Source: a virus. From it: a stretch of DNA of 23,131 bases. The DNA is taken from positions 1 to 23,131 of IMG/VR virus record IMGVR_UViG_3300007734_000487, one strand, 5' to 3'. This document shows, in pieces, positions 3,591 through 21,000 of this stretch. The translations under genes were made by a program, and so were the position numbers. Position 1 is the first letter of the stretch, and each line of letters starts with the position of its first letter. The notes beneath the pieces are model-generated. The model saw nothing but the letters and a program-made list of their open reading frames with translations, ran no database searches and had not been told where the DNA came from.

Positions 3591-3712
3591 TATGCAAATA
3601 CTCTATGTTCAATTATTTTAATACGATCTTCAAGTGATTCGTGTTTAACACTTACTTCTTTGATTGCGATTTGCGAATCAAAGTTAACTTTAAAGTTAAC
3701 ATTATTATTTAT
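3590..3712 (-). CDS. possible small coiled-coil protein without an ATG start
   Basis: The 115-base gap between the endolysin and the upstream membrane protein holds an open frame of about 40 residues with protein-like composition: a beta-like start (NVNFKVNFDSQI) and then an amphipathic helix (KHESLEDRIKIIEHRVF). Its stop overlaps the endolysin ATG as TAATG, which suggests real, coupled translation. There is no ATG, GTG or TTG at a sensible place; the drawn start is an ATA at 3712-3710. A TTG lies further upstream, inside the preceding gene. The in-gap ATG at 3702 is in another frame and stops after 16 codons. It may use a rare start, have lost its start by mutation, or be a remnant. Confidence 0.35.
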   Translation of the reverse strand: MNNNVNFKVNFDSQIAIKEVSVKHESLEDRIKIIEHRVFA

Positions 3713-3911
3713 GTTTTTTAGATTTATTCCATTCGTGAAACCATTTCCATCCTGTATAACCAATGGCCAATAAAAGGGACATTATTTTCAATACAAGCTC
3801 GATATTAGTCAGGCTAATACCAATAGCTGCAACGTGTGCTAATACTACCGAAAGCACATCGGGATGTTCGTGTAAGAATTTATGCATATAAAGGGAGTTA
3901 TTTGAGCGCAT
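3705..3911 (-). CDS. small membrane protein, holin-like
   Basis: A 68-residue protein with two hydrophobic stretches (about residues 19-34 and 38-56) and a basic C-terminus rich in Lys, Trp and His. It lies just upstream of the endolysin and fits a holin, antiholin or other lysis-regulating membrane protein; the sequence alone does not decide. The ATG at 3911 overlaps the upstream gene by 14 bases; an internal ATG at 3887 (MHKFLHEHPD) avoids the overlap and is equally plausible. Confidence 0.65.
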   Translation of the reverse strand: MRSNNSLYMHKFLHEHPDVLSVVLAHVAAIGISLTNIELVLKIMSLLLAIGYTGWKWFHEWNKSKKHK

Positions 3912-4092
3912 CGAAACGAGCCTTTAATTGTCGTATTTGTTCATCTGCAAGTAAATTAATATCCAATTCAACCTGCTTATTAGGGTCTTCATAGACCATA
4001 TAACGGTTAATCAATTCTCCATTTTCTACTTCTTCGCATACCCAAGAATCACGACCATCTCCTTGCGGTTTATATGTATATATTTTTTCCAT
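3898..4092 (-). CDS. hypothetical protein, 64 residues
   Basis: A small acidic soluble protein that I cannot assign. It begins with aromatic residues (MEKIYTYKPQGDGRDSWVCEE) and ends in a helix (ADEQIRQLKARFDALK). Its ATG shares a base with the stop of the tail fibre gene (TAATG), so it is translationally coupled to it. A fibre chaperone or small accessory protein would fit this position, but that is only a guess. Confidence 0.7.
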   Translation of the reverse strand: MEKIYTYKPQGDGRDSWVCEEVENGELINRYMVYEDPNKQVELDINLLADEQIRQLKARFDALK

Positions 4093-6337: not shown

Positions 6338-8320
6338 TTAATCCTTTTTAATTACTGCTGCCCAAATATGTCTGCAATATGGTACATTAGCACCATCTCT
6401 ATTCCACCAACCACCTCTGAACTCCCATACGTTAGTTCCTAAATCATTGCTCATAGCCGTTAAATCAGAACTTGTATAAGTAACACCAGCAGCTGATTTA
6501 TCTAACATCTCAACACAGAAATCTCTCGAATGCGATACGTTTCTTTCCTTCACATCAGGTCGCCAAGTGTACTTATACTCTACTCTCATTCCGGAAGTTT
6601 TCGCCCCTTCGTTATTTACAATATTCTCACCTGATTTTTTTGGGATAATCTCACCTTCCTTAACCTTCAAATACCCGCCATCATCAAGTCCTTTAATTAA
6701 TGAATTTACTTCGCTCTCAGAGATTTTTAACACCTTAGCGATATCTTTAGTAGGCATTAAACTATCCTTGCTTAAAAGGTCTATAATAGCTTTTTCATTA
6801 GGAGTTAAATCCGAGGCAAATTGCATACTGATTAGATTCGCCTCATATTCTGCAAAGTTGAAGTTTTCACTAAACTCGATTGGAATCTCTTTAACGATGG
6901 TTCCGCCGGTATTCTTCCCATACTTAGCAAATACAGATCGCCAATCTTTCTCGGCATTCATTTGAACAGGAGCCGTTGGAGTTACGTTTGTTTGAACCAA
7001 TCCTCCCTTCAATCCAATAAGACCACGAATCTCTTCTTGGGACATAGCCTCAAGAACCTTAGTAGCAACAAGTGGAGATAATGTATTCAAGGCGTTTACT
7101 ATATCCTTTCCTGTTTCATTTGTATCTGCGTGTTTTAATTTAGGTAATCCCAATTTTTCTCTGACCTCATCAGGAGTAAAGGCAGCGTTAATCTGTGTGT
7201 CTGTCAATCCTGCTGACACAGATGGAGCGTGTCTAAATTGTACCTTAGAAGTTACACCGAAAAGACCAGCAAATCCATTAATAACATCCTCTAACAATCC
7301 TTGTCGGATATTAACGTAGGTATTTTGAAACAACTCATAAGCATCAATCATCTCAGTTCTTCCTCCTAACTGCCCCTCAGTCTTAACACCAAACAGCATA
7401 GGACTTGTAATCTTATGCCCCGTGAAAATATCCTGCTCAACACGTTTTCCAATCTCGATAAATTGCTTATCCAAATCACTCGGAGCAAATGAAGTAATAG
7501 TAGGGGCGTTATCGGCCGTATTATTAAAAGTAATCGCTACACTTCCAGCCTTATCAGTCCCTTGAAACTTTCTCTTAATACTTTGCTCAATCTGCTTCTT
7601 GGCCTCATCCTCAGGAACCCCGTTATTAAAGTTGATAATCGTACCAACAGAGAAACCCGTCTTAATGTTATTTAAATGGTAGTTAGCAATCTCAATATCT
7701 GTCTCGATAGAAGCACAAGCACCGATATATTCAGGAACAGGATATACGTTTCTATCCTTACCGTTCTTAGGACTGATTAACTTATAGTAGAAAATTTGAT
7801 CCTTCCCAGGTTTGTTAGGGTCGAAAGCTGTAAAAGTCTTCAACCCCGTTTTTTCAGGTGATTGATTTGCTTGTCCCCAATCATTAGAATAGTAGAACTC
7901 TGTTTCATCAGGATTGACACGAATCTTAGAAAATGGAATATAATTAATACTAACTAATTTAGTAAAAGCCTTATTCCAAATAGGCTCAACATAGAATCCG
8001 TTAAACCATTCAAAATCTTGAATCATCTTTCTAATAAATCCATCCTTATTAAGTTGACGGATAAACTCATTCGCCTTGGCACGTTGCACCAAATTAGACC
8101 CCTGCTCTTTAGCCTCTAATCCACCACCATAGATATAGTTAGTCTTACCAGTTAAGATAGCACCGTGCTTCGCACTACGCAAAGCCAATTCAATGAGATA
8201 CTCAGGGTATTTATTATCTTCCCCGTAGTATACCCAATCCTTACCTTTAACCTCTTTAAACTCAGGAATCTTGTGATTCTCGAATTTAATGGTCATGAAA
8301 TTATTAGCTTCCTGTGCCAT
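6338..8320 (-). CDS. portal protein with winged-helix and CRHIW-type C-terminal domains
   Basis: A 660-residue protein. Residues 1 to about 400 are portal-like: early DNKYPEYLIELALRSAKHG, the stem and wing region, and GGRTEMIDAYELFQNTYVNIRQGLLEDVI, typical of portals of this host group. The portal forms the dodecameric DNA channel at the capsid vertex and docks the terminase. Residues about 505-559 (LTPNEKAIIDLLSKD, then ISESEVNSLIKGL, DGGYLKV) read as a winged helix-turn-helix. Residues 578-660 form a separate domain with SRDFC, NVWEFRGGWW and PYCRHIW, known from the C-termini of phage portal and head morphogenesis proteins. The gene lies far downstream of terminase and after the capsid gene, which is unusual. 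It overlaps the upstream gene by 17 bases. Confidence 0.85.
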   Translation of the reverse strand: MAQEANNFMTIKFENHKIPEFKEVKGKDWVYYGEDNKYPEYLIELALRSAKHGAILTGKTNYIYGGGLEAKEQGSNLVQRAKANEFIRQLNKDGFIRKMIQDFEWFNGFYVEPIWNKAFTKLVSINYIPFSKIRVNPDETEFYYSNDWGQANQSPEKTGLKTFTAFDPNKPGKDQIFYYKLISPKNGKDRNVYPVPEYIGACASIETDIEIANYHLNNIKTGFSVGTIINFNNGVPEDEAKKQIEQSIKRKFQGTDKAGSVAITFNNTADNAPTITSFAPSDLDKQFIEIGKRVEQDIFTGHKITSPMLFGVKTEGQLGGRTEMIDAYELFQNTYVNIRQGLLEDVINGFAGLFGVTSKVQFRHAPSVSAGLTDTQINAAFTPDEVREKLGLPKLKHADTNETGKDIVNALNTLSPLVATKVLEAMSQEEIRGLIGLKGGLVQTNVTPTAPVQMNAEKDWRSVFAKYGKNTGGTIVKEIPIEFSENFNFAEYEANLISMQFASDLTPNEKAIIDLLSKDSLMPTKDIAKVLKISESEVNSLIKGLDDGGYLKVKEGEIIPKKSGENIVNNEGAKTSGMRVEYKYTWRPDVKERNVSHSRDFCVEMLDKSAAGVTYTSSDLTAMSNDLGTNVWEFRGGWWNRDGANVPYCRHIWAAVIKKD

Positions 8321-18805: not shown

Positions 18806-20005
18806 CTAAATAACGTGGTATTTTCCGTTATTGTTATTTTGTAGCTTATTGAGTGCTACATATCGGAGGGCATCTATTGCGTGGTTATTATAATCAACCG
18901 GAGTGTTAATCGGATTCCCCTGTTTATCGGTTGCCCATTTGTATGACTTTAACTCCTTTAATAGGTTGGTTGATTTAGCCGTTATGTTGAGTTTATAACG
19001 CTTTAAAATGTCAATTGAGTTCTTGATACTATCAGCACCCTTTAACGCTCCATTCACGTTAAAACCGTGGTTGTATATCTCGGTGATACTCTTAGGCTCT
19101 GAACTATCAGCAACGATATACTCGTGCCGTTTAATATCCAACTCCCTTAATCGTTCAGCTATTTGATCATTGGTCATTCCCCTCTTATACTCCAACTCAT
19201 TCACATATAACTCCCCATTCTGCATTCTTACTTCCAAAATCGCAGTCGGGTCATTAGTGAATCCAAAGTCCATTCCATAACCAACAAAAGTAGAATCATC
19301 AGGGAGTACATCAACAATAGAATAATCAGTGAAAATAAGACCAAATATCTTACCATACTGCCCAAGACCGTAAATCTTCCAAAACTCAGGGTCAGTCTTT
19401 TCCAGGTATTCAATCTCCGACACCAGCGATTGCGGTAGGAACGTGTTGTCCTTGTAAGTCGATACGATAACTTCAACATCCTTTTTCTCTATTGCTCGTT
19501 TCTGTTCTAATTCTGTGTTAATCCAAATGTTCTCATCGTCAGGGTTGAAGTCTATAAACACCTTATCCTCGGTACGCATAAGAAGCTGAAAGAACTCTTT
19601 TTTGTAGTCTAACTCGTTCGCCTCGTTGCAGTATAGGATATTCCGTTTAGCACCCCTCAACTTCTGCTCATCATCTGCACCGATAAACTCAACCATACGA
19701 TCCCCATACTTGTAGGTCTTTTTGGTCTTATTCTGTTGGATGGTATTCTCGAACCCGTGTTTCTTGATCTCTTCCTCAAAGTCGCGGATAACGGTAGCAT
19801 CTAAGGTAGTAGAGTATTTACGAACAGTAGACCACACACCTTTCTCTACTCGCTTATTCCTTTCAAGTTGCCCAGTCATTAGCCACAACAGGCATACTTG
19901 GACAATAGATACGGTCTTACTGCTACGAGTGCCACCACGGTTTACTACGATTTTCTTATCAGAACCGTAATTTCGACTAAATACCGGAGTGACCTCCAAC
20001 TGCAT
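18806..20005 (-). CDS. terL: terminase large subunit (Terminase_3 type)
   Basis: A 399-residue packaging ATPase and nuclease. The Walker A-like motif is GGTRSSKT (24-31), and the ATPase region continues through GAKRNILYCNEANEL (Walker B-like, catalytic Glu). The C-terminal RNase H-like nuclease shows YGMDFGFTNDPTAI (first Asp), VADSSEPKSI (second Asp) and NNHAIDALRY (third Asp). These fit Terminase_3 plus Terminase_3C. It pumps DNA into the prohead through the portal and cuts the concatemer. The frame stays open to 20098, but those extra codons only translate the repeat array; ATG 20005 (MQLEVTPVFSRNYGSDKKIVV) is the better start and abuts the first repeat. Confidence 0.92.
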   Translation of the reverse strand: MQLEVTPVFSRNYGSDKKIVVNRGGTRSSKTVSIVQVCLLWLMTGQLERNKRVEKGVWSTVRKYSTTLDATVIRDFEEEIKKHGFENTIQQNKTKKTYKYGDRMVEFIGADDEQKLRGAKRNILYCNEANELDYKKEFFQLLMRTEDKVFIDFNPDDENIWINTELEQKRAIEKKDVEVIVSTYKDNTFLPQSLVSEIEYLEKTDPEFWKIYGLGQYGKIFGLIFTDYSIVDVLPDDSTFVGYGMDFGFTNDPTAILEVRMQNGELYVNELEYKRGMTNDQIAERLRELDIKRHEYIVADSSEPKSITEIYNHGFNVNGALKGADSIKNSIDILKRYKLNITAKSTNLLKELKSYKWATDKQGNPINTPVDYNNHAIDALRYVALNKLQNNNNGKYHVI

Positions 20006-20567
20006 AACTTTTCTTATTTTAGAAATAACAAGTGTTATCGTGGCGGCCAAAATAACTTTTCTTATTTTAAAATTAAGAAGTGTTAGGTCTTGAGCCAAAA
20101 TAACTTTTCTTATTTTGAAATTAACAAGTTTTATTTTAAGAAGGCAAGTTTTTGAAAATAACTTTTCTTATTTTGAAATTAGTAAAAGTTATTTCAGAAA
20201 TCAATCTTTTTGAAATTAGTTTTTGTTATTTTGAATTTAACAAAAGTTATTTCAAAATCATAAGTTTTTAAAATTAGTTTTTCTTATTTTCAAATTAACA
20301 AGTTTTATTTCAAAACCCAAAATAACTTTTGTTATTTTCAAATTAGTAAGTTTTATTTTCAAAACCCAAGTTTTTGAAATTAGTTTTTGTTATTTTTAAA
20401 ATAAGAAGTTTTATTTCCCAAATCAATGTTTTTCAAAATAACTTTTGTTATTTTTGAAATAAGAAGTGTTAGCTTGACGCTGAAAATAACTTTTGTTATT
20501 TTTAAATTAAGAAAAGTTACCTAACCACCTAAAATAACTTTTGTTATTCTGAAATTAGCAAAAGTTA
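20005..20567. repeat. array of eleven 33-bp imperfect palindromes at 48/58-bp spacing
   Basis: Eleven units start at 20005, 20053, 20101, 20159, 20217, 20275, 20323, 20381, 20439, 20487 and 20535; each is exactly 33 bp. The best pair is left arm TAACTTTT with right arm AAAAGTTA (as at 20487 and 20535). Left-arm variants read TAGTTTTT; right-arm variants read AAGTGTTA or AAGTTTTA. Inner parts are TTATTTT and AAATTA. Spacers are 15 bp (five) or 25 bp (five), in the order 15,15,25,25,25,15,25,25,15,15. The 25-bp spacers often hold their own inverted repeat (TTTCAAAA with TTTTTGAAA). The left halves are also near-palindromes (AAATAAC, TTTT, GTTATTT). It fills the gap between small and large terminase genes. 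Coding is excluded because 58 is not a multiple of three. Candidate roles are a packaging (pac) site, replication iterons, or an RNA hairpin leader for terL. 20568-20595 is A-rich with nothing visible. Confidence 0.95.
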
Positions 20568-20595
20568 GCCAAAAAACACAAAAAACCGAATTTAG

Positions 20596-21000
20596 TTACG
20601 CTTCACGCTGCTTTTCGATGATTTCAACCCTTGTAACCGTCTGATTCTGATTCTCGGTGATCTCATCCTTCCAATCCTCTTTTCCGAGGTTTCTGAGGGC
20701 GAATTGCGCCCCTGCCCAGGTAAATGAGTAGAGGTTCTTTTCGTAGCACATCTTGATGAACTGCTTACCCTTATTGACCACGTTTAAAAACTCGGGGCTT
20801 CTTTCAGCATAATCCATAAGGCTTTTTCGTGTTGAAAACCCCAAATAAAGCGTTAAACCCTCTATTGTAGGCTGATATTTACCCGAATTATTCTTGGTAG
20901 TTTCAAAATAATCGACCATAACCCTTTCCATTTCGGATGGGTCAGTATATTTGGCTGGTCTTCCAAATAGTGCCTTAAAGTCTATATCTCCCTTTGCCAT
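20596..21000 (-). CDS. terS: terminase small subunit
   Basis: A 134-residue protein. GRPAKYTDPSEMERVMVDYFE starts a typical phage small terminase, then PTIEGLTLYLGFSTRKSLMDY is a helix-turn-helix-like DNA-binding part, RSPEFLNVVNKGKQFIKMCYE a long helix, and FALRNLGKEDWKDE the conserved late block; the tail is polar. Small terminases form rings that recognise the packaging site and load the large subunit. The repeat array immediately downstream is an attractive target. Its start shares a base with the upstream stop (TAATG). Confidence 0.88.
   Translation of the reverse strand: MAKGDIDFKALFGRPAKYTDPSEMERVMVDYFETTKNNSGKYQPTIEGLTLYLGFSTRKSLMDYAERSPEFLNVVNKGKQFIKMCYEKNLYSFTWAGAQFALRNLGKEDWKDEITENQNQTVTRVEIIEKQREA

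Follow-up and report, generated by a model that had tools for sequence, protein, structure and literature searches.

The locus lies in a linear IMG/VR virus record of 23,131 bases, an incomplete fragment of a tailed phage, and this whole stretch of DNA is called the window here. The record probably belongs to a phage of Bacteroidota, and the isolate matches of its TerL include many Bacteroides and Flavobacterium phages with identity up to about 37%. All structural genes recognised in the window are on the - strand. One of them, the portal protein gene (6338-8320, -), encodes two features unusual in a portal, a winged-helix domain (HTH_24/TrmB-like) at residues 505-556 and an additional stretch at the C-terminus. 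Between terS and terL lies a gap of 590 bp with an array of eleven imperfect palindromes of 33 bp (20005-20567; Table 1), which reaches exactly to the terL start codon. The start-to-start steps are 48, 48, 58, 58, 58, 48, 58, 58, 48 and 48 bp, in an almost mirror-symmetric order. A first-pass annotation of the window had reported eleven 33-bp units between terS and terL with steps of exactly 48 or 58 bp and a near-symmetric order of spacers, and the coordinates confirm this description, with a single unit breaking the mirror register.

Table 1. Positions of the array units, spacers and flanking genes in the window.
Feature	Position	Strand	Remark
Unit 1, 33-bp dyad	20005..20037	+	outermost base belongs to the terL ATG, 20005-20003 on -
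Unit 2	20053..20085	+	
Unit 3	20101..20133	+	
Unit 4	20159..20191	+	
Unit 5	20217..20249	+	
Unit 6	20275..20307	+	only unit out of mirror register
Unit 7	20323..20355	+	
Unit 8	20381..20413	+	
Unit 9	20439..20471	+	
Unit 10	20487..20519	+	best dyad, 14/16 pairs
Unit 11	20535..20567	+	
Inner zone	20134..20438	.	holds 25-bp spacers plus one 15-bp spacer, 20308-20322
Outer 15-bp spacers	20038..20052, 20086-20100, 20472-20486, 20520-20534	.	unrelated GC-rich 11 nt plus AAAA
Non-repetitive leader	20568..20595	.	from terS stop to unit 11
terS	20596..21000	-	134 aa, P22 gp3-type; Pfam GP3_package, PHROG 606
terL	18806..20005	-	399 aa; Terminase_3 and Terminase_3C

The consensus of the units is TAACTTTTSTTATTTTNAAATTARNAAAAGTTA, with AAAAGTTA, AAGTGTTA and AAGTTTTA as variants of the right arm. 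Every dyad is imperfect (10-14 of 16 arm pairs), and 131 of the 176 arm pairs are matched, against 64±6 in composition-shuffled units. The left-arm pattern TAACTTTTSTTATTTT with up to two mismatches is found 14 times in the window, always within the array (0.2±0.5 in shuffles), and a two-unit core pattern occurs seven times in the window and zero times in shuffles. Seven of the ten dyads in the window with 16-bp arms and at least 12 pairs also fall in the array. Its AT content of 82% is the maximum of the window, and no separate AT-rich region lies alongside. The mean identity of units is 82%, with pairwise differences up to 10/33, and a minimum spanning tree of the units requires at least 36 substitutions. 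Amid these substitutions there are zero indels within the eleven units, despite the AT-homopolymer-rich region, and this speaks for constraint, as judged within an array that occurs in one genome only.

The spacers fall into two kinds. Five of the ten are 25 bp long and mutually homologous (71% identical), so that part of the quantised spacing comes from shared descent. They are dyad-symmetric as well (TTTTCAAAA...TTTTTGAAA; 36 of 60 pairs vs 20.6±3.5 when shuffled), and block duplication is visible in the array at periods 164 and 106. The four outer 15-bp spacers are identical in length, but their identity over the variable first 11 nt, which are 66% GC, is 30% where chance gives 28%. Because sites and spacer lengths are conserved and the sequence of the outer spacers is free, selection on sites and geometry is favoured, and the earlier proposal that geometry is under selection gains support from these fixed-length, sequence-free spacers. 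The pattern of indels and spacers does not prove constraint, since block duplication is visible and minisatellites of constant pitch exist in Paenibacillus; regular pitch alone is no proof of selection either, because those minisatellites keep a constant 51-bp pitch. As for helical phasing, both steps are about n+1/2 turns at 10.6 bp/turn, which places neighbouring dyads on opposite faces and alternate units on the same face in near-perfect alternation, a two-face arrangement that depends on the pitch chosen and becomes a slow drift at 10.5 bp/turn. Thus, the protein binding one face of the DNA that had been suggested at first gives way to neighbours that alternate between faces.

Relatives were collected by TerL searches, which gave 30 and then 80 loci with TerL identity of 59-76%. 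In most of them terS and terL overlap or abut, and in a minority they lie 45-281 bp apart, with short ORFs or unrelated sequence in between. Comparison of this gap among related phages had been named as a check at the outset, and the array was found at the terS-terL junction in none of these relatives with homologous TerS and TerL. For nine relatives whose records were examined in full or almost in full, no tandem dyad array lies elsewhere either. When a sequence model of the units is run on the window, the sequence it was built from, all eleven are recovered, and it finds no convincing site in 17 relative sources. As far as sampled, the array appears to be lineage-specific, with the reservation that short-read assembly may break contigs at such repeats, so that relatives with an array could be sampled too rarely; no contigs broken in this way came to light in a TerS search. 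Wider searches gave a similar picture. blastn against phages and plasmids returned no relative of the array, where the low-complexity filter may hide some, and exact two-unit patterns in IMG/VR gave either nothing or, on inspection, unrelated AT-rich or tandem repeats. A pattern search of GTDB genomes found unrelated repeats only. Among 396 genomes of the order of a Flavobacterium host (that of L143), scattered matches occurred in 44, with no cluster of units among the matches listed. A TerL search of genome contigs gave no prophage relative, nothing comparable to the array lies in the noncoding gaps ahead of terS in three Bacteroides/Parabacteroides phages, and no description of such an array was found in a literature search. 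The first-pass annotation had placed the array outside CRISPRs, integrons and the iteron types it recognised, and the database searches bear out that it is neither of the first two nor a catalogued element. Within the array, the Bacteroidota promoter consensus has no match except one isolated TAnnTTTG.

The surroundings of the terminase genes in relatives show other features. A 37-bp element, GGTCTAGGGTAYTTATTTTTTTAAATATTTCGCACTT, lies in the terS-terL gap of only four IMG/VR contigs (L012:3801, L013:972, L014:4749 and L018:1100), whose TerL is 71-73% identical to that of the window. With 36 of its 37 positions conserved, it covers the last part of a small ORF together with the noncoding DNA that follows, and looks like a cis site, possibly for packaging, as judged from its sequence. 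In L012, the 3' end of terS is duplicated just before terL (3706-3756 and 3913-3963), flanking a short insert; here DNA can be inserted at the junction and the sequence context ahead of terL is still restored. A set of four 11-bp repeats in helical phase lies about 100-250 bp downstream of terL in marine relatives (e.g., L083, L092, L095, L104), consisting of AGCAAATGCTR three times and then AGCAAATGGGGTTAT, and the exact pattern is present in 24 IMG/VR contigs. Other period-11 repeats occur at a similar place, namely ATAGCATTACT in L067, L071 and L074 and GCTTAAGTACT in L061 and L063. These repeats downstream of terL are candidate sites for a ring-shaped TerS. The terS-terL junction of these phages thus seems to be a place that gathers cis elements and small inserts.

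We tentatively propose that the array acts in cis as a non-coding DNA platform whose eleven dyad sites each fit a dimeric DNA-binding protein, a reading that we regard as plausible though somewhat short of probable, and as the most economical functional one. The lineage of this phage would have gained the array when DNA was inserted or expanded at the junction of terS and terL, exactly up to the start codon of terL. Protein dimers would then bind unit by unit, where both dimer binding and cooperativity are what we infer. With the fixed n+1/2-turn steps, each unit would face away from its neighbours and the same way as the next but one, and bound dimers may contact each other to form a regular nucleoprotein structure in the 82% AT stretch. 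A role at the DNA level is favoured because the RNA hairpins of single units are weak (0 to -6.4 kcal/mol). No candidate for a dimeric binding protein, a replication initiator or ParAB was recognised among the searched proteins of the 23-kb fragment. It is doubtful that the array represents a new kind of cis element, that is, a two-faced lattice of large dyads and fixed-length, sequence-free spacers that would nucleate a regular protein-DNA assembly in the late operon of this lineage. The use of such a platform as a replication origin seems unlikely, and the lambda type would be its nearest working analogy. An origin had been suggested earlier from the AT-richness, and beyond this and the form of the array no positive support was obtained: relatives do without the array, and the GC skew, named as a check for an origin, makes no turn at the array, skew being a supporting sign only and confounded by gene direction. 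SPP1 oriR interrupts late genes (PMC6316719) and would be a precedent, by analogy, for an origin situated among late genes. About as unlikely as an origin is some other use by a dimer-binding protein, such as partition, silencing or titration of a regulator. If functional, the array would present dimer sites in a geometric code of unusual clarity, with two half-integer-turn pitches, at a place where related phages keep terS and terL overlapping. It would offer a simple system in which to ask how spacing, and not sequence, comes under selection, and what advantage a phage draws from keeping the two genes apart.

Neutral or selfish expansion, in which a dyad near the terL start was multiplied by tandem and block duplication and the spacing merely reflects the lengths of copied blocks, is rather unlikely in our estimate and still keeps a substantial probability. 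The array is in no relative examined, the homology of the inner spacers and the periods mentioned above indicate block duplication, and the junction in relatives tolerates short ORFs, the 37-bp element and a duplicated terS tail. Constant-pitch minisatellites of dyads do exist: in Paenibacillus (L140, L153, L156 from Paenibacillus herberti and L157 from Paenibacillus sp. SY21-1), long tandem arrays of about 10-20 copies of a dyad around AGTARCTTTTRTTACT are found at several chromosomal places with a nearly constant 51-bp pitch. However, the spacers of these minisatellites are nearly as similar as their dyads, unlike the outer spacers here, which are saturated in sequence and not in length, next to units that are still 82% identical. 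Phage genomes also usually shed useless DNA, which is against the persistence of a neutral array.

Initiation of packaging at a pac or cos site, where a TerS ring would bind the array and TerL would cut nearby, is quite improbable. The position between terS and terL suits it, and P22 pac is within terS and SPP1 pac overlaps terS (PMC7672466, PMC6316719). The best remaining argument for packaging would be the 37-bp element of the four relatives, which occupies the same gap and could, from its sequence, be a packaging site. On the other hand, relatives with homologous TerS and TerL have no array, and the unit model finds no convincing site in them. The predicted structure of TerS, whose confidence is modest overall (mean pLDDT 69.7) and about 86-92 for residues 21-80, places a helix-turn-helix at 46-65 with the recognition helix at 58-65. 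This helix, RKSLMDYA, differs by one residue in L018 (RKSLIDYA) and by two in L020 (RQSLHDYA), both of which are array-less on short contigs. Because the recognition helix is almost unchanged in these array-less relatives, it is unlikely, on this structure model and alignment, that TerS reads the dyads today. TerS rings are built of 8-11 subunits, in most cases nine (PMC7672466). With one helix-turn-helix per subunit and DNA wrapped around a 9-11-mer, ring geometry would imply repeats about every 11 bp, not 33-bp dyads every 48 or 58 bp. The pac site put forward in the first-pass annotation is thus weakened by the array-less relatives, by their nearly identical recognition helix and by a pitch unlike that of a TerS ring.

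It is very unlikely that the array acts as an RNA element, whose hairpins in the late transcript would uncouple terL translation or attract a nuclease and in this way fix the ratio of TerS to TerL. In most relatives the two genes overlap or abut, a coupling that the array removes, and the folding of the whole array is far stronger than that of shuffled sequences (z about -10 on one strand and -9 on the other). However, such global folding is a trivial consequence of repeated palindromes, the hairpins of single units are weak as noted above, an Rfam search gave chance-level matches only and no family, and RNA folding leaves the fixed spacer length unexplained. The arm mismatches on the + strand, 17 G.T vs 1 A.C, would speak for it, but the strand favoured by this bias is antisense to the genes on either side, and few independent changes (about seven columns) underlie it. 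The strand asymmetry itself is accounted for by none of the explanations. An equally slight chance is given to a partition or centromere-like site, or to a decoy that draws off a regulator, in the way that sopC repeats titrate ParB/SopB. The layout resembles that of sopC with its 11-12 tandem inverted-repeat units (PMC9178275, PMC6238139), but no ParA/ParB or plasmid replication gene was found in the fragment, the dyads are 33 bp and not 16, and a position in the late operon is unusual for a centromere.

Three further candidates were rejected. A CRISPR would have cas genes and near-identical repeats set apart by unique spacers of some 25-45 bp, whereas the repeats here differ at up to 10 of 33 positions, the spacers are 15 or 25 bp with the longer ones homologous, and no cas gene is among the proteins searched. 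Coding is dismissed since the 58- and 106-bp steps are not codon multiples and the ORF list has none spanning the array, and a designed giant hairpin since mirror pairing of units gives 24.7 matches vs 24.2 for any pair of units.

Among known systems, the pac/cos sites of P22, SPP1 and PaP3 share with the array a position at the terminase genes. They consist of one short site or of a few contact regions, with no dyad array, and relatives with the terminase genes of this phage do without the array. The Paenibacillus minisatellites (L140, L153, L157) are alike in having tandem short dyads, around AGTAACTTTTGTTACT, at the constant 51-bp pitch, a half-site similarity that follows from the search pattern, in which the same half-site was used; they differ in lying on a bacterial chromosome and in spacers nearly as conserved as the dyads. 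F parS/sopC is a run of twelve repeats of 43 bp that each contain a 16-bp inverted repeat (PMC9178275, PMC6238139) bound by a ParB dimer (PMC9178275). The two have in common 11-12 tandem units of 43-58 bp with an inverted repeat in each, but the array has two alternating pitches, much larger dyads and no par genes recognised in the fragment. In lambda ori, inverted 19-bp iterons are bound by O dimers, with AT-rich DNA beside them (PMC5043065). The array differs from it in having eleven 33-bp sites instead of four of 19 bp, in lying between terS and terL and not inside the initiator gene, in the lack of an initiator recognised in the 23-kb fragment, and in its absence from relatives. What it shares with lambda ori is tandem inverted-repeat sites and regular spacing, the initiator role being putative here, and the AT-rich DNA is in this case the array itself.
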